A stretch of DNA of 64,000 bases from a virus: positions 147,114 through 211,113 of the IMG/VR virus record IMGVR_UViG_3300043446_004613; one strand, given 5' to 3'. Below, one piece after another: positions 3,558 to 56,036 of this stretch. The position numbers and the translations under genes were made by a program. The stretch's first letter is position 1. Each line of letters opens with the position of its first letter. The notes under the pieces are model-generated. The model worked only from the letters and a program-made list of their open reading frames with translations, made no database searches and was not told where the DNA came from.

Positions 3558-5855
3558 ATGACGATTACACCAAAAACCTTTCCGGGGGTTTACACGACTA
3601 TTGTCGACAAATCCTTTTTTACTCCGGCGACCAGCCGCTTCAAACCCGGTTTGCTCGGTGTCGCCTCAAAAGGGCCGTTTGACGTGCCAACCCCGGTGCA
3701 GTCACTCAAGGACTTTGTCAACGCGTTTGGCCGTCCGATCACGACGACCTACTCGACGGACGCGACCAGCCGCATCACGACCCCAGACGGTAACGGCTAC
3801 TTTCTCGCTGACGCCGTGGACGCGATCACGGATTACACCGACGCGATCACGATCGTGCGCATCGGTAACCGCTACACGGAACTTCAACCTTCCGACGCAA
3901 TTTCCGGTGCAAACAACTACACGGTGTACAGCCCGTCAAACGCACCTCGGATTCAGCAGCTGATCGTGGATAACGACGGCCCGGTATATCTGCGTCTTAC
4001 GCAGCCCGGCCTCCACTCGACAGTCAATGTTCTGGCTATCTCAGCCACAGGTACAACCATTGCGCTTGACCCGAGCAGCGACGGTATGGCTGACGCCTAC
4101 GGCCCCAATGCGACGATCTCGTACAGTCTTACGGACAAGGCAGCCAATAAAGCGGAAGGCGTTCTCTACGCTTACACCTACGGCACCGATGCAACTGACT
4201 ATGCAGACGCGCTATTCACGTCTGTCGGTTCCATCTCTGGCAACAAGAATCAGTTCCAGTTCTACTGCGCATCTGATGCGGACAACATTGCTGTCGGTGA
4301 TGTTTTCAAGATCAAGGAAACGAACAAAGACACGTCGTACGAAGTGCGTGTTCGCGGTTTGCTCATTGACTACCTGAACAACAACGCTGGTACGGTCTAT
4401 CTTGAAAAGACGGACATGCCGCAGATCGGCTATCAAGCGCTGCCGTTGCAAGACAACTACTCCAATGCCCAGCTGTACAAGCCCACCGGCAAGCTTCCGG
4501 CTCTTCGCCTCAAGGCGACCACGGAAGGCACATGGGCCAACGGCGCAAATTCCTCGCAAGGTCTTTACCTGCGCGTACGCCCCGGTTCTGACGGCGGTAC
4601 CAAGAAGCTTGAAGTCTACTGGGATTCAGCGCTTGTTGAAACCCACGACAATATCACAGACGATCCGGCTGATACCGTCAATTTCTGGGAAGCCCGCTTG
4701 GCCAAAGGCAAGAGCCAGTTCGTTTACCTCGACGAAGATGCAGGCGTTACCGACTTGATTACCGGAGATTGGACTTGCGCCAACACGGTTCATCCGTGGG
4801 ATGCCCGTTTCTTCGGCACTACCGCAACTCCCGGCCTGCCGGTTCCGATGCCGCTCGGTGCAACCAACGCCGGTATCTTGAACGTCGCAGTGAATACCAT
4901 CGAAGACACTGGCGGTCAGTTTATCAATGGTTACAACGGCGAAAATCCGAACGATTCCGACTGGATTGGTACGCTCGACCCGACGACAGACACCATGACC
5001 GGTATCCGTGCTTTTGAAGACACCGACACGGTTGAAATCAACTATCTCGCCGCGCCGATGGACAACATCAGCTTTGCGGTGATGGAACAGATGGGCCGTA
5101 CCTGCGCCAAGGTCAATGCGATGGCCGTTTGCGACGTGCCTGCTCAGTACAACGCTCGCGAAGCGATTGACTGGCACAATGGCAAGCTGCCGACTCAGGA
5201 CGGTACCCGGATCGACAACCGCAACGTTGCGGTCTATTGGAATTGGTTCATGCGCACCAATAGCTGGGCTGAAACAAAGTTTGTGCCTCCGACGGTTGGA
5301 TTGCTGGCACGTACCGGCTACACCTTCAACGCGGACAAGCCGTGGTATGCTGTCGCTGGCGAAACTCGCGGCTATCTCCAGATGGCTGAAAAGGTCGCGT
5401 TTGACCGCGTGTCTGATGACACCAAGCAGGCGATGTACGGTAACGGCAACAGCATTAACCCGATCCTCAAGATCAAGGGCAACCACTACCTGTACGGTGA
5501 ACGCACAATGCAACGTGCCGAAAGCAAGCTTACGGCAGTTCATAACGTTGTTCTCGTGAACTGGGTTGTAACCGGTATGGCGAACGTCGCCCGCCGCTTC
5601 GTGTTTGATCCGAACGACGCTGAATTGCTGATCCAGCTGAAGCTGGCGTTCACCGAGTTCCTTGACCGCATCGCTAACGATCGCGGCATCGAACAGTACA
5701 ATCTGGTCATGGATGATCGGAATAACACGGCTGAGACTCGCAATAACCGCGAAGTTTTAGTCGACTTGGAGATTATTCCGACCGACGTGGCGGAACGTAT
5801 CTACATCAACGCGACTGTTCGCGAAAGCGGCGCAGTCCTGAACCGTTTAGTCTAA
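3558..5855 (+). CDS. Contractile tail sheath protein (gp18-like)
   Basis: 765 residues. The N-terminus has the typical sheath opening (PGVYTTIVDKSFFTP, then GLLGVASKGPFDVPTPV...F...FG). The C-terminus has the conserved T4 gp18-type domain: FTEFLDRIANDRGIEQYNLV, then RNNREVLVDLEIIPTDVAERI with a final beta strand, which forms the arm exchanged between neighbouring subunits. The middle (about residues 150-480) is a long variable surface domain; the total is longer than T4 gp18 (659) and similar to jumbo-phage sheaths. Two GTAGTTAA sequences lie in the 108-base leader. The tail tube gene follows after four bases. Confidence 0.95.
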   Translation: MTITPKTFPGVYTTIVDKSFFTPATSRFKPGLLGVASKGPFDVPTPVQSLKDFVNAFGRPITTTYSTDATSRITTPDGNGYFLADAVDAITDYTDAITIVRIGNRYTELQPSDAISGANNYTVYSPSNAPRIQQLIVDNDGPVYLRLTQPGLHSTVNVLAISATGTTIALDPSSDGMADAYGPNATISYSLTDKAANKAEGVLYAYTYGTDATDYADALFTSVGSISGNKNQFQFYCASDADNIAVGDVFKIKETNKDTSYEVRVRGLLIDYLNNNAGTVYLEKTDMPQIGYQALPLQDNYSNAQLYKPTGKLPALRLKATTEGTWANGANSSQGLYLRVRPGSDGGTKKLEVYWDSALVETHDNITDDPADTVNFWEARLAKGKSQFVYLDEDAGVTDLITGDWTCANTVHPWDARFFGTTATPGLPVPMPLGATNAGILNVAVNTIEDTGGQFINGYNGENPNDSDWIGTLDPTTDTMTGIRAFEDTDTVEINYLAAPMDNISFAVMEQMGRTCAKVNAMAVCDVPAQYNAREAIDWHNGKLPTQDGTRIDNRNVAVYWNWFMRTNSWAETKFVPPTVGLLARTGYTFNADKPWYAVAGETRGYLQMAEKVAFDRVSDDTKQAMYGNGNSINPILKIKGNHYLYGERTMQRAESKLTAVHNVVLVNWVVTGMANVARRFVFDPNDAELLIQLKLAFTEFLDRIANDRGIEQYNLVMDDRNNTAETRNNREVLVDLEIIPTDVAERIYINATVRESGAVLNRLV

Positions 5856-5859
5856 TCTT

Positions 5860-7668: not shown

Positions 7669-7670
7669 AC

Positions 7671-8207: not shown

Positions 8208-8223
8208 TTCGGTTCTTACCGGC

Positions 8224-30498: not shown

Positions 30499-32472
30499 AT
30501 GGCTGATACCAAAACCAGCAGTTTGTTGCGCTACATGGGACTTACGGGTTCGAGTGGGGCGCACACCGGTTCTCTAGTGCCTCGTGCCCAAACGCCCGAC
30601 GCCGATCAACGGCTATGGCAGGAATTTCAAGATGCCGGTCGTGTAAGCGATCCTGAAATCTGGACGAAGTTCAATTCCATGATGAAGCGTCCGACGACGT
30701 TCGACGCGATGCTTCAGATGTGGGATGAGATGAGTCAGTGGGACTTGCTGGCGGCAGCGCTCGTCGAAATTGTCGATGAAGCAACGCAGGCCGATGCCAA
30801 CAGCCCCGGCACGTTATGGTACCAGTGCAACGATACGGCTTTTGAGGAAGAACTGAACGACATGCTTGTTCGCCTCGATGTCGAGTCCTTGATTCAATCT
30901 CAGGTCTGGTATATCGCCGCGATGGGTAATCACTTCGAGAAATTGGAGTACGCACCGCACGACGGCATCATCGGGATGTCTTTTGTTCACCCAATGGAGA
31001 TGCGTCGCTACTGGCTGGAGCGCAACCGCAAATGTATCGGATTCCGCTGGCTAAACCATAAACCGAACAAAGAAGACGTTTTTGTACAGCCCGACAACTC
31101 GACGCCGGTTGAACGTGTTTCAATGGCCAGCGGCCAGAACGTCGAAGATTTGTGGTATCCGTGGGATTTTATGCACTTTCGCCGCATGTTCCGCATGCGC
31201 ATGAGTGAGCACGGTGAACCAATTTTTTCTGAAGCTGACGGCATCTATAAGAAGCTGCGCTTAGCTGTTGACCAGATGGTCGTCTGCCGTGCGCAAGTTC
31301 AACCTGATCGTTACGCGGTCAGCATCGACACACAAGAGCAACCGCCGATTGAGCAAATGAAAACGGTGCAGCGCTGGCGTCAGACGCTACGCAGCAAGCT
31401 GGCGTTCGGGCAGGTTGGATCGCCGAACGAGATGAATAGTGCCAGTGACTTTACGGCTTATTACAACGCGCTGGCTTTGGACACCATGCTGTACATTGCA
31501 CAGCCCAAAGGTTTCAACAACGTCATCACCAAGCTGCCCGGTACAGCAGACGTGCCTGATGTATACGACATCGAGCTTTTAACCGACCTTTTCTACAGCA
31601 TCATCGGCATGCCAAAGTCATGGTTCAGTAACCAAGGTGGTGGCGGCGGTGGCGGCGGTGAAACACCGTCCGGTCGTGCGTTGCTCGCTCAAGACATCCG
31701 TTTCCTGCGCAAGATCAAGTCCATCCGCAAGCCGATTACCAACTGTTACCAGTGGCTGGCTTACTTCCACGCCGTACTGAAAGGCAAGGATGTCAGCAAG
31801 CTCGACATCAAGGCCATGATGCCTCAGATCGGCAGTCTGGAAGAGCAGATGAAGATGGAAATGCTCGGTATCCAAGCCGACATCTTGCAGAAGCTAGGTG
31901 ACGTCATGGAGCAGTACAAGTTGCCCAAGGAAGCGTGGATTGACGTCGTTTTCAAGCGCTACATGCACCTTCCAGACGAAGTTGTTTCTGTTTTCATGAC
32001 GGCGCTGCCCTCTGAAATCGAGCAGCAGGAAGAGAGTCTTGGTCGCAAGGGTGCGCCCAAGATGGATAAACTGATCGAAGAGATCAACGCCAAGATCGGC
32101 AATAGCCGTGAAGGTCAGGCAGCCATGAACATGCTGCGGGAGGTCTACTACAAAGAGAAGTTGCCGCAGGAACCGAAGACCAAGTGGACAAAGGAACGTG
32201 TCCTTGAGCGTGCGCCGATGAAAGAGAACGACGTTGTTGTATCAAGCTTTGGTCGCCATCCGTTTGAGCTTAAACGCCGCACAAATTCTGACGGAAAACT
32301 CTCCGAGAGCAAAGTCGGCGAAAATGGTGCTGCCGGGGTCATCCAAGCCAAAGTCGATGCTAAGTCTGCGGGCTGGGACGATGACGGCGCTACGAAGCCT
32401 GTCAACGAGTCACAATCAGGTTCCGGCGAGGGCATGGGCGGCCCGTCCGTGTACCGTAAATGGATCGGCTAA
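30499..32472 (+). CDS. Portal protein (gp20-like)
   Basis: 657 residues. Features of T4-type portals: an N-terminal helical region with FNSMMKRPTTFDAMLQMWDE, the wing segment (WYIAAMGNHFEKLEYAPHDG; SFVHPMEMRRYWL), and the clip/stem region DIELLTDLFYSIIGMPKSWF followed by SGRALLAQDIRFLRKIKSIR. A run of eight glycines (about residue 380) sits at the place of a known variable tunnel-loop insertion. The C-terminus is charged and disordered. It forms the dodecameric vertex for DNA packaging. GTAGTTA lies eight bases before the ATG. The next gene overlaps by one base. Confidence 0.92.
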   Translation: MADTKTSSLLRYMGLTGSSGAHTGSLVPRAQTPDADQRLWQEFQDAGRVSDPEIWTKFNSMMKRPTTFDAMLQMWDEMSQWDLLAAALVEIVDEATQADANSPGTLWYQCNDTAFEEELNDMLVRLDVESLIQSQVWYIAAMGNHFEKLEYAPHDGIIGMSFVHPMEMRRYWLERNRKCIGFRWLNHKPNKEDVFVQPDNSTPVERVSMASGQNVEDLWYPWDFMHFRRMFRMRMSEHGEPIFSEADGIYKKLRLAVDQMVVCRAQVQPDRYAVSIDTQEQPPIEQMKTVQRWRQTLRSKLAFGQVGSPNEMNSASDFTAYYNALALDTMLYIAQPKGFNNVITKLPGTADVPDVYDIELLTDLFYSIIGMPKSWFSNQGGGGGGGGETPSGRALLAQDIRFLRKIKSIRKPITNCYQWLAYFHAVLKGKDVSKLDIKAMMPQIGSLEEQMKMEMLGIQADILQKLGDVMEQYKLPKEAWIDVVFKRYMHLPDEVVSVFMTALPSEIEQQEESLGRKGAPKMDKLIEEINAKIGNSREGQAAMNMLREVYYKEKLPQEPKTKWTKERVLERAPMKENDVVVSSFGRHPFELKRRTNSDGKLSESKVGENGAAGVIQAKVDAKSAGWDDDGATKPVNESQSGSGEGMGGPSVYRKWIG

Positions 32473-38213: not shown

Positions 38214-39350
38214 ATGAATCTGATCACATTCAATGACCCGATCACAATCGCCTTCAAGAAAAGCGCCGGTGGCGTCACTCAAACCTTTGAAGCCAACCGT
38301 CCATACCTGATCGCCAATGCGCAGATTGAGCGCATCATGCGCGATCAACAAGTCAGCGGACGCGCTTACAAAATCAGCCGCGCCGACACACGTATTCCGA
38401 ACGCGCATAAAGCCGCTTTCAACCGTAATGACAGCGTTCTGATCTACAACGGCAGCGGCGGCTACGGCGACCAGATTTTGACTTGGCCGGTGGCGCGTTA
38501 TCTTGCCAATCAGGGTTTGAAAGTCCACGTCTTAACTGACCCCGGCAACAACGTATGCTGGTGGGGATTTGACTTCGTCAAGACGGTGAACACGATTCCG
38601 TTGCTTTGGGAGACTGTTCAGCTATATGACCACTTCATCCACTGGGAGGCGGTGGTTAACATGGACGAGCATCAGGATCAGGAGCATCCGATTGACATGA
38701 TGTTCCGCAAGATAGGCTACGATCCGGCGGATATTTCGGCTGAGGACAAGTGCGTGCGCCCTGTGTTTACGCCAAGTGAACTAGGCACCTTGAACAAATA
38801 CGTGACTTCCGGCAAGCGCGTCGGTCTTTACCAGCTATCCAGTGCCAATCCAGTGCGCTGCCTGCCTGCGGCGGACAGCGTGTTCTTGATCATGAAGATT
38901 GCTGAAGCCTATCCTGACATTCACTGGCTCTGCCTGCATGACGAGTTTGTGCCCAAGGAGTACAAAGAGACACTGGCTGTTGAAATTACCAAGCGCGGTT
39001 TTACGAATGTGGAAGGTTTTACGGCTCCTAATCTGCGCGAACTGTGGGCGCTGACAGAGCACGTGAATGTGGTTATCAGCCCTGACAGCATGATGGCCCA
39101 CATCGCCGGAGCTTTCGGTACTCCCTGCGTAGGTCTTTGGGGGCCGATGTCACCGGAAAGTCGGATGAAATACTACAAGAACCACCACCCGATCTACCAT
39201 CGCGAGTTCTGCCCGCACAGCCCCTGCTTTGTATACAGTAACACATTCCCGAAATATTGTCCGCCTCGCGCAAATCGCAATGTCTGCGACGTTATGGCCG
39301 GTATTTCGCCTTCGGAAGTGATTAGCGCTATCGGTCACATCTGTAGATAG
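38214..39350 (+). CDS. Glycosyltransferase family 9 (heptosyltransferase-like)
   Basis: 378 residues. GT9 signatures: VLIYNGSGGYGDQILTWPVA at about residue 77, the acceptor region WWGFDFVKTVNTIPLLWE, and the nucleotide-sugar half VGLYQLSSANPVRCLPAADS, then VVISPDSMMAHIAGAFGTPC and VGLWGPMSPESRMKYY (the 'D(S/T)...H.A...g.P...lfG.t.p' motif). The N-terminal 70 residues are an extra domain. GTTCTTA lies five bases before the ATG. The 3' end is duplicated downstream (see 39326). It resembles the N-terminal half of the fusion at 19220. Confidence 0.85.
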   Translation: MNLITFNDPITIAFKKSAGGVTQTFEANRPYLIANAQIERIMRDQQVSGRAYKISRADTRIPNAHKAAFNRNDSVLIYNGSGGYGDQILTWPVARYLANQGLKVHVLTDPGNNVCWWGFDFVKTVNTIPLLWETVQLYDHFIHWEAVVNMDEHQDQEHPIDMMFRKIGYDPADISAEDKCVRPVFTPSELGTLNKYVTSGKRVGLYQLSSANPVRCLPAADSVFLIMKIAEAYPDIHWLCLHDEFVPKEYKETLAVEITKRGFTNVEGFTAPNLRELWALTEHVNVVISPDSMMAHIAGAFGTPCVGLWGPMSPESRMKYYKNHHPIYHREFCPHSPCFVYSNTFPKYCPPRANRNVCDVMAGISPSEVISAIGHICR

Positions 39351-39483
39351 TTCATGAACGATGAACCGATAAATACTGAGTATATTGATCCCGAGGCTGA
39401 ACGCTATCGGTCACATCTGTAGATAGTTCATGAACGATGAACCGTTAAATCCTGAGCATCTTGATCCCGAAGCTGAACGCTAT
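39326..39483. repeat. 76-bp tandem duplication spanning a gene junction
   Basis: Two copies of 76 bp (39326-39401 and 39402-39477) plus the first six bases of a third unit. Each copy starts CGCTATCGGTCACATCTGTA, covering the end of the GT9 gene and the first codons of the next gene. The copies differ by a few substitutions. The ATG in copy 1 (39354) opens a 22-codon frame ending in TAG at 39422, seven bases before the real ATG in copy 2 (39430). Confidence 0.85.
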
Positions 39484-40158
39484 CTCAGCCAGCTTCCGCC
39501 CGCGCCGCCAGACGATACGCTTCAAGGTGTCGTTTCCGCGCTGCAACCGTTGGGCATTACAGAGCTTAAGGTGCAATATTCCGGCTATGGTGACAGTGGA
39601 GACATCGACTACATCAGCATAGAGCCGTCTGACATCGTTTTGCCGGATAAGTTCGATGAAGTGGTTAAAGACGTTGCGTGGAAAACAGCCTACAATCTAC
39701 ACTCCGGATTTGAGAATAACGAAGGTGGTCAAGGTCATGTAACTTTTGATTTTAACGATAGAACGGTCACGGTATATCACACAGACAATGTTGAGTTCGA
39801 CGAGGAACTGAACATGCCGAATTTACCTTTGCCGGAAGAATTTCGGGAATACACTGGGGATGACGGATCGTGCTACATTAGCTTCTACATGGGCAGCGAT
39901 GGTGATGTCTACTTCAATGATAAAACTGAAGGCATCGATGAAGATGCAAACAATGTTGGGGCTATTTCAACGCTTGTTTTTGATAACGCAGACTTAGGGG
40001 AAAATGATTCCTACTCTGGAGCAGTGCGCTGGCAAAATGGCTCAGACACCTGCTCTATCAGAGGCACGAAATCATGGACAGCGACTGACGAGGATAATGC
40101 CTCTGTAAACACGTATACGTTCGATGAAATTTTAGCGAATGAGCAGCTAGGTACCTAA
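39430..40158 (+). CDS. Hypothetical protein, DUF6878-like N-terminal part
   Basis: 242 residues, acidic. Residues 35-120 contain LGITELKVQYSGYGDSGDID, then LHSGFENNEGGQGHVTFDFN and DRTVTVYHTDNV, a pattern that from memory resembles DUF6878-type proteins of bacterial plasmids and phages ('Y.G.GDSG...l....H..wE.n.Gg.G...d....'). A second part (GDDGSCYISFYMGSDGDVYF) may be a further beta domain. The 5' end was duplicated: a copy of its first 16 codons lies upstream. No function is known to me for the family. Confidence 0.6.
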   Translation: MNDEPLNPEHLDPEAERYLSQLPPAPPDDTLQGVVSALQPLGITELKVQYSGYGDSGDIDYISIEPSDIVLPDKFDEVVKDVAWKTAYNLHSGFENNEGGQGHVTFDFNDRTVTVYHTDNVEFDEELNMPNLPLPEEFREYTGDDGSCYISFYMGSDGDVYFNDKTEGIDEDANNVGAISTLVFDNADLGENDSYSGAVRWQNGSDTCSIRGTKSWTATDEDNASVNTYTFDEILANEQLGT

Positions 40159-44090: not shown

Positions 44091-47047
44091 ACGAAGCCTA
44101 CCATAGTCGTTATGACAGACCGGAGATGACTCCGCACACAGCCGGTGCGGATGATCCGAACTTGTCTCTGGACGCGGCGGCAGAGATGGTGGACGCGATC
44201 CTCAACATCGGTTACGTGCGCCATAAGCAGTTGGAAGACTATGCGGCGGCTAGTCAGTCGCTTGAAGTCTATCGCGACGGAACATTCCATATCAAGCACG
44301 CACACGTGGGCCAGTATGCAGACTTTGTAGACCGTTCAAACCACAGTTACTTGAAAGAAACGTATCCGTGGCTGACGGATGTCGGTGATGGGCTTGGTTT
44401 TGACGTAGACACGTGGCCCGAAGAATTCGACAGCTTTGAGGCGTACCTTGCGTCGATAACTGAAGATAGCTGGACAGCCTTCTTTGAGGAACTTGAAAAT
44501 TTGGAGAACTACCCTGTGTTGGATGAGCAGGGCATGTCTGACCTTGAGATGAAGGAGACTGATCGGTGGATCACCGAGGACGGTACCCCAGATATGATCA
44601 AGGAGTTGATGTCTTACATCGACGACGCTTACGAGGTATTTCTTGTCTCAAAGATCACGCCGGACTTGATGTACGAATGGTGCCGCGAAACGGGTCATTA
44701 CCCGGAAAGTCAGGGCGAGGGCGCGGTGTGGCTGGACGTCAAAAGCTACGCGCAGCAGGAAGAGACACAGAACTGGTTCGTTGAGCACATCGACGACGAT
44801 CACGCAGGCTGGGAGGCTGTGCGGACGACGTTCTTTGAGTCGCAAGGTAACAAGTTTGACGCGCTGCTTAAAAAGCTCGCCATTGAGGATGAGGTTATCG
44901 CGACTGTCTACAACAAGCTCGATGCCGACTCTTTCCGCCGTCTGTGGGACTTGGCACACCCTGACCACTGGGCTGGCGGCGATGAGCCTTACTGGTATTT
45001 CTGGAAGCCATACAACGCTACAGAGATCGTGTGGGCTTACGGCTGGGAGCCGGAAGGCTGGGGCAACAATGACTGGATTGGGCAGTATCAACTCGCGCTT
45101 GAAGAGATGTACGATTCGGATAAGTTCCGCAAGCTCGTGGCAACTTTCTTTGAACGTCCGCCCAAAGACCACCCGGAACTGAAATTTGAGTCGATCGACC
45201 CGGATGATCCAAGTATCTTCATGGACTACGGTGGTGGCCTGAACCAGACCACGCTCTATGCCGATGATCGTATTGTTCTCATTGAGCCTAAAGATACAGC
45301 GGCGATAAATCATTACCTTGAAACAGGCGGCTATCAGCCAATCAACGGTCAAGACTACGAACGTTATTTCCGTTGGCCGGACAAGATTGTCATCTTGGAT
45401 AAAGTCGGTGAATCCGACGAGCAAGGCAGCCAATCGGTAAAGCCGCTCGGTATCTTGCTGCTGGAAGATGGAAACATGCGCTCATGGCCGCCTCCGACTT
45501 ACGGTGGAAAAGGCATCGACGTGTTGTTGGAAAACGTGGCTGTGCGGAAAGCCCTGCTTCAGTACTTCCGGCGTCTGATTGAAGAGGACAGTGAATCGTA
45601 CGCGCTAGGCAACTACCTGCTCAAGCTTGGAGGCCCCGCAGAGCTTCGGCGACAGGATCGTAAAGGTAACTTGCGGCTTGATGACTACAGCCTGCCGCTC
45701 GCGCTATACTACGTTAATCGTAAACAGTACAAGAAGATTCCAGCGCTATACGGCAAGCCGGTAGAGGCAGCGGAGCCTCGCGGAATTTGGTTGAGCTACA
45801 CAGGCTTTGATGATCTCGCGCCGGTTTTTGAGAACGAGAAAGCGGCAGAGGAAGTTTTCAGCCAAGAAAATTACCACTGGTTCGATTACACCGACGAGCC
45901 GGAAGCAAAAGATGTAATCCCTTATCTCACAGGTAAAGCGATGAAAAGTATCCGGGAGGCGCTTTTGAATCGCCGCGTCTGGATGCCCGATGCCGGTGAA
46001 AATCAGCGTGGAGACTACGTCGTGCTGACCAAGGCTGTCCTTGATCAGTATGATGATCAGACACTAAAAGACTGGCTGAGTGATCCGAGCGACGAAGATA
46101 CCGAAGATGGTGTGTTCGACGATATAATCGACGCGATTAAATCCGATGGCCGTCGCGCTATCGAGTCGTTAAGTCAGGACAATGTTTACACTGCGTATAC
46201 AGATAAAGCCATCGAACAGATCGGCGGCATTGAGTACAAGTGGGGCACGTCCGGCGTAGACAAGTCTGGTAGACCGAAAGAAGCGCTGCTTGTGTTGGTT
46301 CGCTGGAATGACATCGCTGAAGCAGCTACTACGTATTACAGCAACGAAAACGAAAATTTTAGCGGCGCTTTGGAAGACCTGATGGTGCAAGCCAACAAAA
46401 AGTCAGCCTCAGTGGACGATTCGCAGTATCACGCCAGCACCTACGATTTTGCCAAGTGCCAGCATCTCGATGGCCTCTTTTACGAGATATACGAGCTTGA
46501 AGCGCCTAAGCCTTATGTAGACCCAAACCAAACACAGTTGGCGCTTGAATCGCAGGTTGACTTAGACAGTCCTGACGAAATGCCTGCCATGTGGAGCGGC
46601 ATACCAGTGACACTTGAGAAGCGGGTCAACGCCGCTATCAAAGACGCAGCCAATGCGGAAGGTGCAGTGCTGTCACCTGCACATTTTAAGCTTATACCGA
46701 TCGAGCAGTACTCCGAAGAAGAGCTTGATTCATCGGACGGTCGTTTGACGCAACCAGACGCTGGACGGAAATTGGCGCTTTGGTTTGAATATGACGAGAA
46801 CTTTAAGTGGCGATCGATGCAGAGGCTGTTTGACGCTGTCACGGACATCGTTGTAAACGAGTTCCCGGAATATACGTCCGTGCGCTATTCGGCGAGTATG
46901 CTGGATGCTGACGTGTTAGGCTTGGAAGACATCGAACATCCAGAAAGTACACTCGTGTTTCTGTATGCTCTCCACGACGCTGCTCGAAAGCAGTCGGATC
47001 AAGAAGTGCTTGATCAGCTGGGCGCTGGAGAGGAAATTCCATTTTGA
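44087..47047 (+). CDS. Large acidic protein of unknown function
   Basis: 986 residues, rich in Asp/Glu and aromatic residues, with no transmembrane segment or signal peptide. Repeated local patterns of the form 'W..e....e' occur (PEEFDSFEAYLASITEDSW; WYFWKPYNATEIVWAYGW; GWGNNDWIGQYQLALEEMYD). A C-terminal region (FKLIPIEQYSEEELDSSDGR) resembles the end of bulky phage internal proteins, but I recognise no family. It lies between GTG-started late genes and the 2H-phosphoesterase protein. Candidates are an injected internal protein or a scaffold. Confidence 0.6.
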   Translation: MNEAYHSRYDRPEMTPHTAGADDPNLSLDAAAEMVDAILNIGYVRHKQLEDYAAASQSLEVYRDGTFHIKHAHVGQYADFVDRSNHSYLKETYPWLTDVGDGLGFDVDTWPEEFDSFEAYLASITEDSWTAFFEELENLENYPVLDEQGMSDLEMKETDRWITEDGTPDMIKELMSYIDDAYEVFLVSKITPDLMYEWCRETGHYPESQGEGAVWLDVKSYAQQEETQNWFVEHIDDDHAGWEAVRTTFFESQGNKFDALLKKLAIEDEVIATVYNKLDADSFRRLWDLAHPDHWAGGDEPYWYFWKPYNATEIVWAYGWEPEGWGNNDWIGQYQLALEEMYDSDKFRKLVATFFERPPKDHPELKFESIDPDDPSIFMDYGGGLNQTTLYADDRIVLIEPKDTAAINHYLETGGYQPINGQDYERYFRWPDKIVILDKVGESDEQGSQSVKPLGILLLEDGNMRSWPPPTYGGKGIDVLLENVAVRKALLQYFRRLIEEDSESYALGNYLLKLGGPAELRRQDRKGNLRLDDYSLPLALYYVNRKQYKKIPALYGKPVEAAEPRGIWLSYTGFDDLAPVFENEKAAEEVFSQENYHWFDYTDEPEAKDVIPYLTGKAMKSIREALLNRRVWMPDAGENQRGDYVVLTKAVLDQYDDQTLKDWLSDPSDEDTEDGVFDDIIDAIKSDGRRAIESLSQDNVYTAYTDKAIEQIGGIEYKWGTSGVDKSGRPKEALLVLVRWNDIAEAATTYYSNENENFSGALEDLMVQANKKSASVDDSQYHASTYDFAKCQHLDGLFYEIYELEAPKPYVDPNQTQLALESQVDLDSPDEMPAMWSGIPVTLEKRVNAAIKDAANAEGAVLSPAHFKLIPIEQYSEEELDSSDGRLTQPDAGRKLALWFEYDENFKWRSMQRLFDAVTDIVVNEFPEYTSVRYSASMLDADVLGLEDIEHPESTLVFLYALHDAARKQSDQEVLDQLGAGEEIPF

Positions 47048-47049
47048 TT

Positions 47050-48360
47050 ATGACACCGTTTGGATTAGCCAGAAGCCTGCTTGAAGCCGAATACTCGTAT
47101 TCGTCGACGGACATCGCGCCGCCGCCGGAGATGATCGACTTCATCCTTGAATGGAACCGGTTACAGGTTCCTGAAGATGCTCTGGTCATCGATCCAGATG
47201 GCGGCAAAGGTCGTGAACGCGATCCGCATATCACCGTCAAGTACGGGCTGCTTGCAAGCGAAGTACCGGGTGAACTGAGGCAGATCGCCAAGGACACCAG
47301 ACCGTTCCCAATCTTCTTGGGTACTGTATCGTTGTTCACAACGAACCCGCAATTCGATGTGGTGAAAATCGATGTGGAGTCGCCCGAACTTCGCTTGCTC
47401 AACAAGCGCGTCAGCGATGCAATCCCACACGAAGACTCGTATCCGACCTACAATCCACATCTGACGCTCGCCTACGTTAAGAAAGGTTCCTGTACACATC
47501 TTGTCGGGGAAGACCCGTTTGAATCACCAGAGTCGACACGCGAATTCATTGCTGCCGGTATGCGCTTCAGCGGTGCCGGTGACGACAGTGACCCTGACCG
47601 TTTACGTGAGCATTTGCTGTTTAGCCGTGCGCCAAAAGCCAAAGAGGTAACCGAGGCGGTCATAGACGTTGAACGCACCGAAATCGACAGCATTGTAGAC
47701 ATCATTACACAGTGTGCGGAAGAATCCAACAGCGACCCGCGCATTTTTGTGGCCTTGGCTAATGATGCGTTGCAAGACAAAGGCGTCCTGTTCGGCGAAA
47801 CCCAGTTCAACGTGCCAGAAGCGGATGAGACAGGTGTTACCATACCGATCCCTTATCCCCAGCAGCTGCGCAGCCCATACTGGCCGAAGAGCTTGGCTTC
47901 CATTTTATACCATGAAGGCGTTCATCTTGGGCAGATGGATCGCATGCAAGACCCGAAGGCCGTAGCCGATAAGGCTACCGAGTACGTCGCTCCCGGCGGT
48001 AAGATGGATACTGATCGCTATCTGAACCAAAAGCAGGAAGTCATGGCGTGGGCGGCTAGCATGGTTGACTCTTGGCGTCGGCAAGGGCTTTCCAAGGAAC
48101 AGATGGTGCAGCGCCTTCGCTCGGGTAACTGGGGCTACGGAATGAAGTACTGGCATAATCGTCAGCGCTACCCGCAGACGTTCAACCGTTTCGTCAAGCA
48201 GGCGACTGAATACATCAACCTAAGTGAAAGCGAAGAAGCCCGCATTGAATCCGTTAATACTGATCCATTTGCCAACCTGAAGTTCCCGGTTGACCCGGCG
48301 CGGGTTGCTCAGTTCTTAAACAGTAACTGGAGGAAGCGCGTTGGGCGCATGATCCTGTAG
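47050..48360 (+). CDS. 2H phosphoesterase fused to an HExxH zincin-like domain
   Basis: 436 residues; ATG at 47050, with a TTG at 47044 also possible. Residues about 25-185 have the two HxTx motifs of 2H phosphoesterases: HITVKYGL at about 60 and HLTLAYVKKG at about 137, spaced as in LigT and the anti-CBASS enzyme Acb1. Residues 210-410 contain LASILYHEGVHLGQMDRM at about 288, a HExxH zinc-metalloprotease motif with a later Glu (NQKQEVMAWAASMV). The two domains in one protein suggest a takeover or counter-defence effector, possibly delivered with the virion. Acb1 function is from the known family; here it is inference. Confidence 0.7.
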   Translation: MTPFGLARSLLEAEYSYSSTDIAPPPEMIDFILEWNRLQVPEDALVIDPDGGKGRERDPHITVKYGLLASEVPGELRQIAKDTRPFPIFLGTVSLFTTNPQFDVVKIDVESPELRLLNKRVSDAIPHEDSYPTYNPHLTLAYVKKGSCTHLVGEDPFESPESTREFIAAGMRFSGAGDDSDPDRLREHLLFSRAPKAKEVTEAVIDVERTEIDSIVDIITQCAEESNSDPRIFVALANDALQDKGVLFGETQFNVPEADETGVTIPIPYPQQLRSPYWPKSLASILYHEGVHLGQMDRMQDPKAVADKATEYVAPGGKMDTDRYLNQKQEVMAWAASMVDSWRRQGLSKEQMVQRLRSGNWGYGMKYWHNRQRYPQTFNRFVKQATEYINLSESEEARIESVNTDPFANLKFPVDPARVAQFLNSNWRKRVGRMIL

Positions 48361-48372
48361 TTATTGCGTTAA

Positions 48373-51300
48373 ATGAGCATCGGCAATCTCAAAGAGCAGT
48401 TTCTGTACGATCTCCTGCCTGACGCTGTCGTCAGTCAGGATGATCGCGGGTACATCGAAGCAGTCGTTTCCGGCGTGCAAGACCGCTTGGAAGACGTGCG
48501 CTCTTATGCCAAGAAGCTGGACTTGTTCTGGCAGCCCGGTGCGCTTCCAACCGGGAGTTACAATGTCATTCTGGTCGATCTCGTCAGCGAACAGGGTAAA
48601 GCGTATACGCGCAGTCTGGACATCCAGACGGATACACCTGCTCCGGGCAGCAGCCAGCTTCCACTGTGGGCAGCTTTTCAACTGAACATCCCGGTCGAAG
48701 CATTAGGCGCGGTGCGTTACGGATACGATGCGTTGCGTGCTGTAGACGTTAACACTTTGGCGTGGCTGGCCCAGACACTGGGAGCGATCCTGTATGATAC
48801 CGACATGCTTGAGGGCAATGCGGTAAACGCCGCTCAAGTCCAACTGGTGTCTACGTGGTTCCCGCGCCTCAAGATCAAAGGCACCAATCAAAGCTTTGAA
48901 GTGCTCGGTAAGATTCTCGGCTTTGACGACATCCGCATGACCCCGCTGTGGTCACGCCTTAATCCGCACGTCCCGGACGATGTCGGCAACAGCGCCAATG
49001 CAACCGATTACGCCGCCGAGCCGGAATACGCGCCGCAGCAAGTTATCGGCCCTTACTACGATCCGTTCGTTTATCGTGACGGCCCTTTTTACAGCTGGAG
49101 CACTACGGTTAACAACGGCACGAACAGCACCGAATTTTACACGGAAAGCGTCAACGGTAAGAATCCTTGGATTCGCGTTGCACTGCTCGGTTCACTGGCA
49201 GGCACGAACGTACCATCGATTCAGAACGGGACAGTTACTCATCCAGCGACTGGCTCATACGCACTGGCCAACGGTAATTCACTGGCCCGCGCATACGTTG
49301 ATCCGCTCGGCAGCAGCGTTCGTTTTCAGGCGGTCGCCGACGGTGCTTCCTTCAACGGCATCTATGTCCACGTTACTACCGTGGGTACGCTGGCGACGAT
49401 TGCCATCGAAGACCGACTGTCGGCAATCAAGTACCGCAGCAGTTACTTCGATCTCGGCCTCACCGCTGACATGGACAAGGTGGAGGAAATCTTTGGAAGC
49501 CGGGCGGCGACGACCAATAAAGACCTCAAAGCCAATCCGAACCTGACCCCGGATGGAACGGCGGAGAGTCCATACCGGCCTTGGGTATCCGGCAGCATCG
49601 CTGTTGCCGAGACGACGACAGACTGGGTGACTTCAAACGGCGACATCACCTACACGGTTGTTGCTCGTCAGCAAGCTGATCCAGCGGTCGGTGACCGCCA
49701 GCTGAACACGGATTCACTGGTCGTTGCCGGTGTGCAGGTCACGCAAGCCTTGGAAGAGGTACGTGCAGCTACCCGCCTACCCCGGCGTAGCCAGACCGGT
49801 TTCTTGGTGAATGACAGCGCTTGCTATGCGCCGTACGCTGTAAACGGCACGTTGTTTACAGAACCGACAGCAGTCGCCGCCTCAAGCGGAACCTGCGCTG
49901 ATGCGCCGTTGGGTTCGTATGTGGCTGCTCTGACGGCAGTCATTCCCAATGTAACGGAGATCAAGTGGGTCGCTGAAGCAAACGTTCAGTACGTCCTGAC
50001 CGCTTATTTCATATCGCCGCCCGCACCAAACGTCGTGCTTGGAACAGTCACAGCGCAGAACGCAGGAACGTACGCTTTTTACACCGATACCAGCCCATCC
50101 GCCGCTTTCTCCATCGAACCGTCTCCGGTCTATGCGTTCCCGGTGCAATCGAACACGGCAACGCTGCCTTTGACCGCTGAGGTTAATCCGGCAAACTACG
50201 ACGAATACATCTACGCGATAAAGTCGGATACGAACATAACCTGCACCGGTTCGTTTAATTTCGCGACTGGGCAGTACGGCTTCAGCCACAGCAACATTGC
50301 AGATTTTACGGTGTTGACGGCATGGACGCTGGTGAGCACAGGTACGATTCGGCCTGAGCCTTATGAAAGTGTTCTGGTTTGTGAAACAGGCACGTTTTAC
50401 ACCGATAGCACGTTAGGCCCGACGAACACAAATCCGACTGCGCCGTGGCCGGATACAGGCATATTTTTTCAACAAGGCGAACTGATCTCGATAACGACGG
50501 TCGGTTCTGTTTCACCAACGCCCGGTTATTGGATCGGGCCGGAAGGCTACAACTGGGCACCTGACCGGCTGGACAATCGGTTCAAGCACGAAGCTTTGCT
50601 TGGTCGCGTCGGGCTATCGGGCAGCATCTTTTTGGTCGGCTCGCTCTATTCCGGCGCGGCGACAGACACCGGAAGCCTTTACCTAGTCACGAATGACGTA
50701 TCACGCGCCAACAACGAAGGCTCGTTTACATCGTACATTACCGTCTGTTCCGAAGAAGAACAACGGGCGGCGGAAGCGTGCTTGTGTCGTCCCGAAGACG
50801 AAGATGACGGGCTGATTTACGAGGTTGCTGATGATTTTCCGTGGAACCGTGAAGTCACGGTCGGCGGTGAACTGGTTGAGTTGGACATCTACCGCACAGG
50901 CACGGACATCGCTGTTCAAGAGCTAGAGGAGGCAACAGCTTTCAACGACCAGACCGGTGTCGACATAAATGTCTACGCGCTGACCAGTCCCAACACATCG
51001 GTACCTCGTCTGACCTACGAACCGCGTTCAATCGCTAAAGGCGTATACAGTCCGGCCTACACCGCCATCGGCTATCAAGGCACACTCAAGGACTTGTCTA
51101 CGCTAACATCAGCGGAAACAGACTTCATACGTCCTCCGATCGGTTCCAGCTTTGGCGATACAGAGACGGACTATGACGTGCTCTTTCAGCCCGGATACAG
51201 TCTGTACCACGTTGGCCTCGCTCAAGGCGTTTTGGTTGCGGACTTGGTTAAATTTTTCGGCCCTCAGCACAGCGTGGGCTTGGTCGGTTGGTTCGCATTT

Positions 51301-54300
51301 AATGAGCACGTAGACGCAGCGCTTTCTGTAGTCGACCACAGCTTCCGGGCTACGCCGACAGACTTGATCGGTGTTAATAGCGCAGACCGCCATTTTGACT
51401 CTGTTCGTGGATGGTGCCTGACGTTGAATGACAGTCAGGTGATTGCCGATGAATACCGTGATTTGGTAGACGAAGTGACGGCGGCGTTCTGGATCAAGCG
51501 CACGGCGACTGCACTCTACCCGTCAACGGAAACTACGATTGTCGACTGTTCACTGGTCTATTTCACGCTAAGCCCCGGCGGTGCCGTGACTGGCTACGCC
51601 AAAAAGGACAACGGTGTAGGCACTGCCCTTGGCAGCGTAGTGATTGCAGACGGCGAATGGCACTTCATTTACATCCGGCGCAGCGAACACAATGCAGTGT
51701 TCGGTGATGCAACGTTGTCTACCAGTGCTGTGGAAATCAACGTAGCTGGTTCATACCTTGCCGGTGATCCCGATATTGATACGCTGGTAAATGTGCAAGC
51801 TGCCAATGGCGCTGCATTTACGATCCACGATCTGCGCATCTGGAACGTGACCAAGACAGCAGCGGAAATGGACTTGATCCGTTACCATAATCCGACACCG
51901 ACGCTCTGCACTTACCGCCTTGGGTTCATCTATACGCTGGATCGAAAGGACAAATACGGTATCAAGATTCTACCGTCCGGTTGGGCTTACCCGAATGTAT
52001 TGCCTGCGTGGTATCGTCGCACGCGCCAAGGTCTGGTGTTGCGCTACGATAGCATGGGTTCCTACCACGGCGACAGCCGTTTCAAGGAAGTCGGTATCGG
52101 CGACTGTCGTCCGTTGCCGGACACTTATACGCTGGGTGCTCAGTTCACGTGTATGACTGGTGAAGGCACGACGCCGTACAGCACTGACAGCGGACAGTTG
52201 CCCGGTTGGTCTGCTAAGTGGCAGTCCCAGAACAATTCAGGCAACTACCTGAAATTAAACTTCAGCGGCAGCACGGCTAACGGTATTCCAGCGGTCACTG
52301 TTTCAAGCGGTACCGCAACGCCGTGGCCGAACACGATGACGCAGACTAATCCGTTCCGTGAGTACGTGTACGTGCTTACCACGAACGGGCAGCATGTATA
52401 CCAGATGGCTTTGAATGGTGATGCCGCATCAACATGGTTGGAGGCGGTTTTCGTGGGTACAGTAGGAAATGAAGAAGCCACCGGGGCTTATACACGGCTC
52501 AGCAAGAACGGCGTAGGCATGCTTTTCGCCGACCCGACCACAATGCGCGGCGTTATCTCAGCCGCGAATCCGTGGCCGACGCTTGGTATGTTCACAACGC
52601 CGCCGCTGTACATGTATCTGACCAGCCGCAGCAAGCAGACAGTGGGAGATGCTCACGACACATGGGTCGACAAGACACCTACAGGCAGTCCGCCCGTAGT
52701 GACGCCCGAGGATAATGCCGTCGATTGGCAGCCCATGCCAAGCATCGTGCGTATCGACTCGTACGGAACATCTTTGTATACGCCTGCACTCGGCAAAGCG
52801 GGCGTGCTTGAGTTTACAGGTAGCAACTACCTCGCTACAGGCAACTACGAGCTAACGATTGTTAGTGCGCAAGTAGGTCAAGCGGATGAAGACTTTGACG
52901 GATTCGCTGTCGGCATCAATGTGAACGACACGGTTATCCAGCGCCGCCTGCTGCGCGGTAAGAGCGGCTACAATTTTAGCGGCACGGATACGTTTCAGTT
53001 TTATCTGGACGACGAAGTGAGCGGGAATTATCTGATCAGTTTCGATTGGACGAACCCATTGACAGATACGGCAAAAGGAACCAAGCGCCAGCTGGCGATC
53101 CTTGGTTACACACTCCGCCACATCAATACTGAGATTTTTAAGGTTGAGGCGCTGAGCGTTGGGTCACCCACATTTACGCAGCTTTCTACCGACATCAGTT
53201 CTATTGGTACGACACCCGGCGGCTGGTTTGCAGCAATCAATAGCTATGGTACTGCGGTAGGCTACCAGCACGAATCGACAATCTATACGTCGAACGAAAA
53301 TACAGCGGCAATATATCCCGTTGGAGATACGCTCTCTCCGCTGACAAACGAACGTCGCGACGACATCATTTATACCGGAACGAATGTCGTCGTTGCCGAT
53401 ACCGGTACAATCACGATGCCGAACTTTACGGCGGCAGGCACGGCTCCGCAGGACGCTCCGGCTTGGGTTTGGGCAGGTGCCTTGACCAGTAATCCATCGT
53501 TCACAGTGACAGTCAAAACGACCGGTCAAACGACACTTCGCTTAGCGGTAAGCGAGTCGAGCACTTTTAGCGATAGTTCGATGACCGACATGGTGGCCTC
53601 GGGTGCCGACAATTACACCAAGATCAAAGTTGATGGGTTGAAGCCGTGGACAACCTACTATTACGCTGTCGAGACAGGCGGAAGCATCCATTATGAGATG
53701 GCAGGTACCGTTGCAACATCCGGTACAGGTGCCCAGAGCTTTAAGTTTGCGGTGGTCGCTTGCGAGAACAATACCAGTTTAAGCACGGTATCCAACGCGG
53801 CTTGGGGATTTATTCACACGCAGAATCCGATGTTTGTAATGCACGTTGGGGATTTCCATTACTACAACATCAACGTAAACGATCCATCTTTTTACCGGAC
53901 AGCGTTCAACAACGTGCTATCGGAAAGCAAACACAAAGCGTTCTACCGGCAACATGGCGTCATGTACATGTGGGATGATCACGATTACGGCCCGAATGAC
54001 GGCAGTAGCGCAAACGTATCACGCCCGGCAGCCCGTTCGGCCTACCGGCAAGTGGTACCGCATCTGCCTTTGGCAGCGGGCGATGGTAACCAGCCGATTT
54101 ATTACGCGTTTACTGTAGGGCGCTGTCGCTTCATCGTCACTGATTGCCGATCGGAACGTACGCCAGTAACGGTGGCTGATAACAACAACAAGACCGTACT
54201 AGGCGCGGCGCAAAAAGCTTGGTTCAAGCAGGAACTGCTGGCGGCTAGTTCAAGTGGAGACATTGCAGCGATCTTCTGGGTCAATTCCTTCCCGTGGACA

Positions 54301-54756
54301 GGCGTTGCCCATCCCGAAGCGAATCCGAGCGTGGAGAACTGGGCAGCCTATCCGACTGAACGTAAAGAGATCGCAGATTACATTTACAGCAAGGCCATCC
54401 GCAAAGTGTTCATTCTCTCGGGCGACATGCACGCCACGGCTTTTGACGATGGTCGAACCTACGATTTTCACGCAAACGGTACGAATTCCGTAGCCCCTAA
54501 TGGACACGGACTACCGGTATTTCAGTGCGGTCAGCTATACAACTCGAATAGCCAAAAGGGAACGCCATACCAAATCGGCCCGTTCTATACAGGCTCAGGC
54601 ACGCGTTCTATCTTTGGCATGGTTCAGGTGGACGACTACGGAAGTTACATGCTCATCACTTTCACCGCCCGCAGCGGAGCCAGCGGAGCAATCGTGAACG
54701 TGGGCGGTATCTACGTTACGGCAACACTTAACTCAGCAGAATCACCCAGACCATGA
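48373..54756 (+). CDS. Giant tail protein: gpI-like N-terminus, LamG-type module, PhoD-type phosphatase
   Basis: 2127 residues, GTAGTTA nine bases before the ATG. N-terminal 215 residues resemble P2 gpI-type baseplate proteins (TLAWLAQTLGAILYDTDMLE; FEVLGKILGFDDIRMTPLWS). A concanavalin/LamG-type module is near 970-1180 (VGWFAFNEHVDAALSVVDHS; GEWHFIYIRRSEHN; FTIHDLRIWNVTKTAAEMDL). A fibronectin-type domain (about 1690-1785) precedes a PhoD-like metallophosphatase: VACEN, HVGDFHYYN (1822), MWDDHDYGPND (1866), ILSGDMHATAF (2016). PhoD enzymes hydrolyse phosphodiesters, so the tail could cut a surface polymer. The next gene overlaps by four bases. Confidence 0.8.
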   Translation: MSIGNLKEQFLYDLLPDAVVSQDDRGYIEAVVSGVQDRLEDVRSYAKKLDLFWQPGALPTGSYNVILVDLVSEQGKAYTRSLDIQTDTPAPGSSQLPLWAAFQLNIPVEALGAVRYGYDALRAVDVNTLAWLAQTLGAILYDTDMLEGNAVNAAQVQLVSTWFPRLKIKGTNQSFEVLGKILGFDDIRMTPLWSRLNPHVPDDVGNSANATDYAAEPEYAPQQVIGPYYDPFVYRDGPFYSWSTTVNNGTNSTEFYTESVNGKNPWIRVALLGSLAGTNVPSIQNGTVTHPATGSYALANGNSLARAYVDPLGSSVRFQAVADGASFNGIYVHVTTVGTLATIAIEDRLSAIKYRSSYFDLGLTADMDKVEEIFGSRAATTNKDLKANPNLTPDGTAESPYRPWVSGSIAVAETTTDWVTSNGDITYTVVARQQADPAVGDRQLNTDSLVVAGVQVTQALEEVRAATRLPRRSQTGFLVNDSACYAPYAVNGTLFTEPTAVAASSGTCADAPLGSYVAALTAVIPNVTEIKWVAEANVQYVLTAYFISPPAPNVVLGTVTAQNAGTYAFYTDTSPSAAFSIEPSPVYAFPVQSNTATLPLTAEVNPANYDEYIYAIKSDTNITCTGSFNFATGQYGFSHSNIADFTVLTAWTLVSTGTIRPEPYESVLVCETGTFYTDSTLGPTNTNPTAPWPDTGIFFQQGELISITTVGSVSPTPGYWIGPEGYNWAPDRLDNRFKHEALLGRVGLSGSIFLVGSLYSGAATDTGSLYLVTNDVSRANNEGSFTSYITVCSEEEQRAAEACLCRPEDEDDGLIYEVADDFPWNREVTVGGELVELDIYRTGTDIAVQELEEATAFNDQTGVDINVYALTSPNTSVPRLTYEPRSIAKGVYSPAYTAIGYQGTLKDLSTLTSAETDFIRPPIGSSFGDTETDYDVLFQPGYSLYHVGLAQGVLVADLVKFFGPQHSVGLVGWFAFNEHVDAALSVVDHSFRATPTDLIGVNSADRHFDSVRGWCLTLNDSQVIADEYRDLVDEVTAAFWIKRTATALYPSTETTIVDCSLVYFTLSPGGAVTGYAKKDNGVGTALGSVVIADGEWHFIYIRRSEHNAVFGDATLSTSAVEINVAGSYLAGDPDIDTLVNVQAANGAAFTIHDLRIWNVTKTAAEMDLIRYHNPTPTLCTYRLGFIYTLDRKDKYGIKILPSGWAYPNVLPAWYRRTRQGLVLRYDSMGSYHGDSRFKEVGIGDCRPLPDTYTLGAQFTCMTGEGTTPYSTDSGQLPGWSAKWQSQNNSGNYLKLNFSGSTANGIPAVTVSSGTATPWPNTMTQTNPFREYVYVLTTNGQHVYQMALNGDAASTWLEAVFVGTVGNEEATGAYTRLSKNGVGMLFADPTTMRGVISAANPWPTLGMFTTPPLYMYLTSRSKQTVGDAHDTWVDKTPTGSPPVVTPEDNAVDWQPMPSIVRIDSYGTSLYTPALGKAGVLEFTGSNYLATGNYELTIVSAQVGQADEDFDGFAVGINVNDTVIQRRLLRGKSGYNFSGTDTFQFYLDDEVSGNYLISFDWTNPLTDTAKGTKRQLAILGYTLRHINTEIFKVEALSVGSPTFTQLSTDISSIGTTPGGWFAAINSYGTAVGYQHESTIYTSNENTAAIYPVGDTLSPLTNERRDDIIYTGTNVVVADTGTITMPNFTAAGTAPQDAPAWVWAGALTSNPSFTVTVKTTGQTTLRLAVSESSTFSDSSMTDMVASGADNYTKIKVDGLKPWTTYYYAVETGGSIHYEMAGTVATSGTGAQSFKFAVVACENNTSLSTVSNAAWGFIHTQNPMFVMHVGDFHYYNINVNDPSFYRTAFNNVLSESKHKAFYRQHGVMYMWDDHDYGPNDGSSANVSRPAARSAYRQVVPHLPLAAGDGNQPIYYAFTVGRCRFIVTDCRSERTPVTVADNNNKTVLGAAQKAWFKQELLAASSSGDIAAIFWVNSFPWTGVAHPEANPSVENWAAYPTERKEIADYIYSKAIRKVFILSGDMHATAFDDGRTYDFHANGTNSVAPNGHGLPVFQCGQLYNSNSQKGTPYQIGPFYTGSGTRSIFGMVQVDDYGSYMLITFTARSGASGAIVNVGGIYVTATLNSAESPRP

Positions 54757-56036
54757 ATCAAGTAGGCGATCAAGTTATCTTGCTGGCGACACCGATACCT
54801 ACCGGTAGCGATGTTTACAGCTATGTCTGGGACTTTTGGGATAATTCTTCGGCAGCGACCAGCCAACCGTTTATCACTAAAGTTGTAAACATGGGCGGCA
54901 ATCCGTTCAACGATGTGCTGTCTTACCGTTGCCGCCCGGTAGCTGTCGACGGTCAAAGTGATACGGTGCTTGGTTACATCACGGCAAATCAGCCGCCGAC
55001 CATATTGCCGGGGGTCAGCATCAGCCGAAATGACGAATACTTTACGTATCCGACACGGCTATCGTTGACGGCTATCGACATTGATGGCGACGCCATTGGA
55101 TTCAGCTGGTATCAGGGAACAAATTACATCGGTTCCGGTACCACGGCATCTGCCGGTAGCGCGAATGGAACATGGCACGGCCCGGAGTGGTACAACGGGA
55201 CGACGATTGTCGTATCGCGCCCGGCTACCGAGTGTTACTACGATCTGCTCGTAACTAGCCCGCGCACCGTCACATGTAAGGTTTATGATGTGCGCGGTGG
55301 TACGAGTTCCGTCGACTTTTTGCTGCGCGGTGACGCGAATAGACCACCGGATGCAAGTCTTACCGCAGGTGTAAACGGCGTCGCCTTTGACGCAAGTACG
55401 CCAGTCCAAGCTAGGATCGGTGAAAGCCAGCAGCTGACTTTCAGCGTGTTTGTCGGCCCGATGCCGACACACGTTGTTTATTTTGATTGGAGTTTTTCGG
55501 GAAGTAACCACTGGACGATGGCTCCGCACAGCGTAAACGGCACCACGACTTATCTGGCCAACGGTGCGATCCAGAACACCGTGGAACGCGACATCAGTGC
55601 GGAAGTAGTCACCAGTGGCACAGCCAAGCTGGCCCGTGTGGATGTACGTGTATACGCCGAAAATATCTACGACAGTCGCGTCAGTTATACCGACATAAGC
55701 TATTCGGTATTGCTCATCGAGAATAGTGCTCCTAGCGCAGTCACGGTGGGGCGCTACGATGAAAACAACCTGCCGATTGATACATCGACCGGAACCGGCA
55801 CGAAGATTTTGTTCACCGCGACCGGCACAGACTACAATAACGACTGGATGACCTACGAATGGGCGTTCTCGCATACCGTGCCGCATCTGCCCAGCCCGTT
55901 TTACTGCTGGGGGCCGAAAGTCGTATTCGATACGACCGGCGCGGTGGTCGATACGACGCTTGAAGGTCTGCTTACGGTTACGGATGTGTTGGGCGGCAAA
56001 CTTATCGTAGCGCTGCCTTCTACCACGCTGGAATAA
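54753..56036 (+). CDS. Ig/PKD-like tail fibre protein
   Basis: 427 residues, overlapping the giant tail gene by four bases (ATGA). Beta-rich, with repeating Ig/PKD-type modules: residues 1-75 (DVYSYVWDFWDNSSAA; LSYRCRPVAVDGQSD), 80-195 (TRLSLTAIDIDGDAIGFSWY), 200-330 (GESQQLTFSVFVGPMPTHVV; YFDWSFSGSNHW), and 335-427 (TKILFTATGTDYNNDWMTYE). The four-domain pattern fits a fibre or spacer that extends the giant tail protein. No enzymatic motif or signal peptide. Confidence 0.7.
   Translation: MNQVGDQVILLATPIPTGSDVYSYVWDFWDNSSAATSQPFITKVVNMGGNPFNDVLSYRCRPVAVDGQSDTVLGYITANQPPTILPGVSISRNDEYFTYPTRLSLTAIDIDGDAIGFSWYQGTNYIGSGTTASAGSANGTWHGPEWYNGTTIVVSRPATECYYDLLVTSPRTVTCKVYDVRGGTSSVDFLLRGDANRPPDASLTAGVNGVAFDASTPVQARIGESQQLTFSVFVGPMPTHVVYFDWSFSGSNHWTMAPHSVNGTTTYLANGAIQNTVERDISAEVVTSGTAKLARVDVRVYAENIYDSRVSYTDISYSVLLIENSAPSAVTVGRYDENNLPIDTSTGTGTKILFTATGTDYNNDWMTYEWAFSHTVPHLPSPFYCWGPKVVFDTTGAVVDTTLEGLLTVTDVLGGKLIVALPSTTLE

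Follow-up and report, generated by a model that had tools for sequence, protein, structure and literature searches.

A PhoD-class phosphodiesterase domain in a giant phage protein and its possible display on the virion

Can a phage display a metal-dependent phosphodiesterase of the PhoD class on its particle and use it against the host envelope? Known phage depolymerases mostly cleave glycosidic or peptide bonds, and the best-described virion enzymes that cut phosphodiesters are of the GDPD type. The question is raised by P0001, a giant multidomain phage protein encoded in the last 64 kb of the 211,113-base virus record IMGVR_UViG_3300043446_004613. This stretch of 64,000 nucleotides is referred to as the window, and the phage is assigned to the contractile-tailed phages (myophages) because a tail sheath gene is present in it. 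An initial annotation, made from the letters alone, had described the open reading frame at 48373-54756 on the plus strand as a PhoD-type phosphodiesterase carried on a giant tail protein. The frame proved to be intact and uninterrupted, encoding 2127 amino acids, and its reading as a PhoD-class enzyme is strongly supported by profiles, metal ligands and fold. The same DNA occurs in a second contig, IMGVR_UViG_3300046804_005041, but since the copy is 100% identical it does not constitute independent evidence of conservation. As to function, we lean slightly towards the view that P0001 is a virion-displayed and active PhoD phosphodiesterase which cuts a phosphodiester-linked component of the envelope.

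The PhoD domain and its metal ligands

The existence of a PhoD-class domain in P0001 is certain at the level of sequence and model. Including its FN3-like part, the domain spans residues ~1698-2102. The Pfam family PhoD (PF09423) matches residues 1792-2027 (E 2.2e-22, 80.1 bits against a cut-off of 27), and three PHROG families (hydrolase, phosphodiesterase and unknown) match a wider region with E values from 1.6e-57 to 5.9e-43, the hydrolase and phosphodiesterase families at 1.6e-57 and 5.9e-53. Bacillus subtilis PhoD (PDB 2YEQ) is matched at E 7e-12 by the single sequence and at 7.7e-39 by a profile of 56 phage and bacterial relatives. An AlphaFold2 model built from this 56-sequence alignment (pLDDT 87.2, pTM 0.90) retrieves 2YEQ as the top solved match in Foldseek (E 3.9e-26, TMq 0.72), with purple acid phosphatases ranking next, and the predicted fold is that of the PhoD/purple acid phosphatase metallophosphatases. 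The motifs HVGDFHYY (residues 1824-1831), MWDDHDYGPND (1866-1876) and LSGDMHA (2015-2021), from which the PhoD reading had started, are located inside a full domain that lies far beyond chance. No match to a GDPD (TIM-barrel) domain was found in P0001, the metallophosphatase fold being found instead. Purple acid phosphatases carry an aspartate in place of the cysteine at the iron site, whereas P0001 has the cysteine, like PhoD. With 52 bits against a cut-off of 1000, P0001 falls outside the secreted-PhoD equivalog NF058638 of NCBIfam, and no signal peptide is seen. The fibronectin-type domain noted ahead of the enzyme is present, albeit with matches under the Pfam cut-off (Pur_ac_phosph_N, E 6e-5; PhoD_N, E 8e-4). 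An FN3-like N-terminal domain is a usual part of PhoD enzymes and purple acid phosphatases, and the one in P0001 corresponds to it. A PhoD-fold protein was also found in the jumbo Bacillus phage G (gp352, BFVD G3MA93, 866 amino acids; Foldseek E 9e-18).

In B. subtilis PhoD, C180, D207, D265, D266, N271, N272 and D436 hold Fe3+ and two Ca2+, as established by mutation and crystallography, and mutating C180, D265, N271, N272 or D436 abolishes activity (PMC4223295). In the alignment to 2YEQ, each of these five activity-essential residues has a clear or likely counterpart in P0001. The tyrosine-ligated Fe3+ site corresponds to C1797, D1827, Y1830, D2018 and H2020. For the ligands of CaA and CaB, D1868 and D1869 are clear equivalents, while pairing N1875 and D1876 with N271 and N272 needs a shift of one residue in the sequence alignment. 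This equivalence is likely rather than proven because the loop of P0001 (WDDHDYGPND) is one residue longer than that of B. subtilis PhoD (WDDHEVENN). An exchange of Asn-272 for Asp has been reported to occur naturally within the PhoD family (PMC4223295). Residue conservation was counted in the 56-sequence alignment, where cysteine and aspartate share the iron-ligand position at a ratio of 36 to 20. The split parallels the two PhoD subfamilies described earlier (PMC4223295) and indicates that phages carry both of them.

Overall, P0001 resembles B. subtilis PhoD in fold, in the FN3-like N-domain, in the Cys-containing Fe3+ site and probably in the Asp/Asn set of the calcium sites. It differs from it in lacking a Tat signal, in the longer calcium loop, in a sequence identity of only 17% and in the position of the domain at the C-terminus of a giant protein. 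The C-terminal helix that caps B. subtilis PhoD is absent from P0001, as from most of the family, and the model ends in strands.

We infer that the domain is metallated and active as a phosphodiesterase. Alternatively, the fold could be catalytically silent and, within a receptor-binding protein, bind phosphate or a polymer. It is common for phages to turn enzyme folds to binding, and some relatives have lost ligands, D265 being absent from six of the 56 sequences and D266 from one. P0001, however, retains all mapped ligands, and D207, D436 and the following histidine are invariant (56/56). Such retention and invariance imply selection for catalysis, and a silent domain appears improbable.

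PhoD genes in other phages

The most interesting outcome of the analysis is a broader trend, the recurrence of PhoD genes within the virion gene modules of unrelated phages. The subtype found in P0001 is present in 53 cultured phage records (phages of Streptomyces, Microbacterium, Thermobifida and Nostoc/Anabaena/Dolichospermum) and in 56 IMG/VR loci, of which 53 were analysed (43 distinct at 80% identity). When up to three genes upstream of each locus were scanned, tape-measure families were the commonest, a single family accounting for 13 of 93 proteins, and Dit and minor tail proteins appeared within the top 25 families. In Thermobifida phage P1312 the PhoD gene follows the tape-measure and tail genes; at two further loci (L066 and L075) it comes after tail and virion structural proteins. 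It follows a tail fibre near the major head protein at another locus (L103), and in phage Alleb it is found near the major capsid protein. In a tree, phage PhoDs form several well-supported phage-rich clades, which argues against a single recent capture, and P0001 is unplaced among the deep branches. Its PhoD domain lies behind ~1700 residues, which is unusual: in every phage locus with an assigned reading frame, at most ~360 amino acids precede the domain (L081 and L096 gave no clean frame assignment). Four bacterial loci with an apparently C-terminal PhoD in long frames (L019, L023, L024 and L029) were set aside, as their N-terminal parts look like out-of-frame extensions of GC-rich open reading frames.

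The closest homologues in cultured phages belong to the cyanophages Elbi, YongM and Dfl-JY23 (38-41% identity; YongM 38%). These proteins, annotated as alkaline phosphatase D, share the WDDHDY motif and the cysteine ligand with P0001. Unlike P0001, they are stand-alone proteins of ~630-650 amino acids with PhoD at the N-terminus and no fusion to a giant protein, and in YongM and Dfl-JY23 the gene adjoins a ‘capsid fiber’ gene. In Nostoc phage YongM, alkaline phosphatase D (5775-7658) was detected by LC-MS/MS of concentrated phage with 35% coverage and placed 7th among the 32 proteins; four neighbours running in the same direction (within 4580-9086) were detected as well, one of them annotated as ‘capsid fiber protein’ (PMC8875764, Table 4). 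These data support an association of the PhoD homologue with the particle, be it with the head or with the tail. The phosphodiesterase ORF22 of P1312 (1096 amino acids) and its siphophage clade combine PhoD with a carbohydrate-binding module (CBM_4_9) and are encoded in the tail region. They differ from P0001 in the N-terminal position of PhoD, in an aspartate replacing the cysteine at the iron site and in belonging to siphophages.

For P1312 ORF22, teichoic-acid hydrolysis was named in 2015 as an alternative function, the first proposal of the authors being DNA degradation against superinfection (PMC4569894). By analogy, a virion-borne P0001 might target another phosphoester such as nucleic acid or nucleotides, or a membrane phospholipid, which would aid penetration. 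The phospholipase D of S. chromofuscus, a member of the PhoD family, shares the cysteine iron ligand (PMC4223295). In contrast, the lectin- and LamG-like modules in the same chain of P0001 point to carbohydrate surfaces, and a target of this kind seems unlikely, although it would rank first among the alternatives considered.

The nearest analogue described in the literature is the GDPD of tail modules (PMC10194240). Such tail phosphodiesterases, exemplified by the GDPD-BppU fusion of enterococcal phage 9183, are linked to the virion and have been proposed to cut wall teichoic acid, while their fold (PF03009) and catalytic residues are unrelated to those of the P0001 PhoD. In the literature searched, no paper explicitly calls a PhoD enzyme part of the virion, so the remark that this is not a described tail enzyme was broadly right. 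It overlooked, however, that phage PhoD domains are already annotated as ‘phosphodiesterase’, ‘alkaline phosphatase D’, ‘purple acid phosphatase’ or ‘hydrolase’, as well as the YongM proteome and the teichoic-acid suggestion for P1312. It is conceivable, at a little under an even chance, that PhoD Fe3+/Ca2+ phosphodiesterases form a widespread and so far unrecognised virion-displayed class. This class would comprise tail-tip enzymes of actinobacterial siphophages, particle-associated enzymes of cyanobacterial myophages and that of the present myophage, acting as depolymerases or receptor-destroying enzymes on phosphodiester-linked envelope polymers, with P0001 as the most elaborate form. If so, a metal-dependent class shared by unrelated phages would constitute a new toolbox against teichoic-acid-like or phosphate-linked capsular polymers, and would explain phage genes labelled ‘alkaline phosphatase D’, ‘purple acid phosphatase’ or ‘hydrolase’ that are sometimes read as belonging to DNA or phosphate metabolism.

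Location and proposed role of P0001

The ~1700 amino acids ahead of the enzyme domain are non-enzymatic, rich in Thr, Ser and Gly, and lectin-like. A marginal LecA/PA-IL-like module at residues ~695-789, which had been missed before, matches PF07828 at E 5.9e-5 (23.5 bits in isolation against a cut-off of 22.5; 19.9 bits in the whole protein) and PDB 1l7l at E 0.002-0.006. The LamG-like module that had been seen mid-chain gives a weak match to Laminin_G_3 (PF13385; E 0.001), which at 19.7 bits stays under the cut-off of 27.6. Together, the two modules suggest carbohydrate binding. Searches with parts of residues 1-1690 returned no relatives from viral and genome collections or cultured phages except the identical contig.

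In the proposed scheme, P0001 would serve the virion as a structural or adhesion protein, with binding modules mid-chain and an Fe3+/Ca2+ phosphodiesterase at the C-terminus. The protein would fold and acquire its metals in the host cytoplasm and would then be built into the particle, either at the periphery of the tail or baseplate or in a fibre of the head or neck. Cytoplasmic folding with iron has been argued for PhoD itself (PMC4223295), a route compatible with intracellular assembly of the particle. Once the particle meets a host, the lectin-like modules would grip the envelope and the PhoD domain would hydrolyse phosphodiester bonds in a teichoic-acid-like polymer or in a phosphate-containing capsule or LPS polymer. 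Cleavage during adsorption may open a path to the surface or free the particle from it. B. subtilis PhoD is a phosphodiesterase for which teichoic acid is thought to be the substrate (PMC4223295). Neither a signal peptide nor a hydrophobic N-terminal stretch is visible in P0001, so an extracellular substrate would be accessible only to enzyme carried on the virion or set free by lysis. The missing signal peptide also speaks against ordinary secretion.

Carriage on a tail protein is plausible from the comparison with other phages, and several observations weigh against placing P0001 on the virion, in particular on the tail. The N-terminus, which had been taken for a gpI-like baseplate protein, has no match in Pfam, PHROG or NCBIfam, even when isolated, and a search of the complete 211-kb record with tail protein I (PF09684) gives no match at E <= 10. 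When aligned by hhalign with an alignment of seven gpI proteins, it ranked fourth of 153 segments drawn from 104 kb of the genome (probability 2.3%). In first controls it had been the best of 17 inputs for membership of P2 gpI, but this signal fell inside the noise once the 153 segments were ranked, and the resemblance is therefore given as seen by eye only. A single-sequence AlphaFold2 model of this region was unusable (pLDDT 36). The baseplate assignment is hence not established, P0001 has no recognised virion-attachment domain, and its place in the virion is deduced by analogy. The adjacent genes encode a 2H-phosphoesterase protein, a 986-residue protein of unknown function and a PKD-like protein rather than tail proteins, and the baseplate wedge gene (79.5-81.9 kb of the full record) is ~115 kb away. 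In YongM, the ‘capsid fiber’ gene in the cluster would allow a location on the head instead of the tail, the purity of the preparation is uncertain, and the authors assigned alkaline phosphatase D to DNA metabolism (PMC8875764). Moreover, a YongM UV mutant tolerates a frameshift caused by deletion of the A at 6196, a position downstream of the PhoD match (PMC11356776). P1312 ORF22 had no mass-spectrometric coverage in virions (PMC4569894, Table 1); the same was true for the adjacent tail protein ORF21 (PMC4569894). Finally, Samistivirus PhoD genes reside in a tRNA-rich region outside the tail module.

The non-structural genes flanking P0001 and the Samistivirus arrangement would also suit an enzyme that never enters the particle and acts inside the cell or upon release by lysis, in phosphate scavenging or superinfection control; bacterial PhoD is a phosphate-starvation enzyme (PMC4223295). 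However, P0001 has no export signal, a scavenger would not need ~1700 residues of lectin-like sequence, and the YongM homologue was detected in phage particles (PMC8875764). Such a role is accordingly regarded as improbable.

Neighbouring genes and other features of the window

Coordinates of the features are collected in Table 1. Structural genes such as those for sheath and portal are dispersed along the window. Matches of the sheath, wedge and helicase proteins are spread across unrelated phages, so no host is claimed.

Table 1. Features of P0001 and of the window (window coordinates)
Feature	Residues	Position	Strand	Basis
Contractile tail sheath gene		3558..5855	+	phrog_23, E 2e-40
Portal gene		30499..32472	+	phrog_213, E 6e-12
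P0001, giant multidomain phage protein	1-2127	48373..54756	+	single uninterrupted frame, intact
N-terminal region, gpI-like by eye only (LAWLAQTLG...KIKGTNQSFEVLGKILGF)	1-204	48373..48984	+	no family match
LecA/PA-IL-like module (Ca-dependent galactose lectin fold), marginal	695-789	50455..50739	+	PF07828, PDB 1l7l
LamG/concanavalin A-like module, weak	~1030-1165	51460..51867	+	Laminin_G_3 PF13385, below cut-off
FN3-like N-terminal domain of PhoD/purple acid phosphatase architecture	1706-1771	53488..53685	+	PF16656 E 1.4e-4, PF16655; beta strands in model
PhoD catalytic domain	1792-2102	53746..54678	+	Pfam, PHROG, PDB, model, Foldseek
Fe3+ ligand (Cys-180 in B. subtilis PhoD)	C1797	53761..53763	+	alignments; 36 C, 20 D among 56
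Asp-207 and Fe3+-ligating Tyr	D1827, Y1830	53851..53862	+	56/56 D, 55/56 Y
Ca sites, Asp-265/266	D1868, D1869	within 53974..54000	+	50/56, 55/56
Ca sites, likely Asn-271/272; loop one residue longer	N1875, D1876	within 53974..54000	+	45/56 N; 32 N and 22 D
Asp-436 and His of GDxH	D2018, H2020	54424..54432	+	56/56, 56/56
Downstream gene, 427 amino acids, weak PKD-like (Ig-fold) modules		54753..56036	+	ATGA overlap with P0001 stop codon

The PKD-like protein encoded downstream, for which no relatives were found beyond the same population, is a possible partner of P0001. The upstream gene (47044-48360, plus strand) encodes a 2′-5′ RNA ligase/2H phosphoesterase domain (PF13563, E 5e-12). Its product also weakly matches the anti-CBASS protein Acb1 (E 0.008) and bears in its C-terminal part the sequence HEGVH, a motif resembling that of HExxH-type metallopeptidases. 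Comparison of the two contigs revealed near-identical 83-base direct repeats (94%), ~76 bases apart, at 39326-39484 of the window. Elsewhere in the record, at ~84.4-85.3 kb (L014:14443-15291), a radical SAM protein with a QueE-like match (E 3e-6) is encoded, and 7-deazaguanine modification of the DNA is possible.

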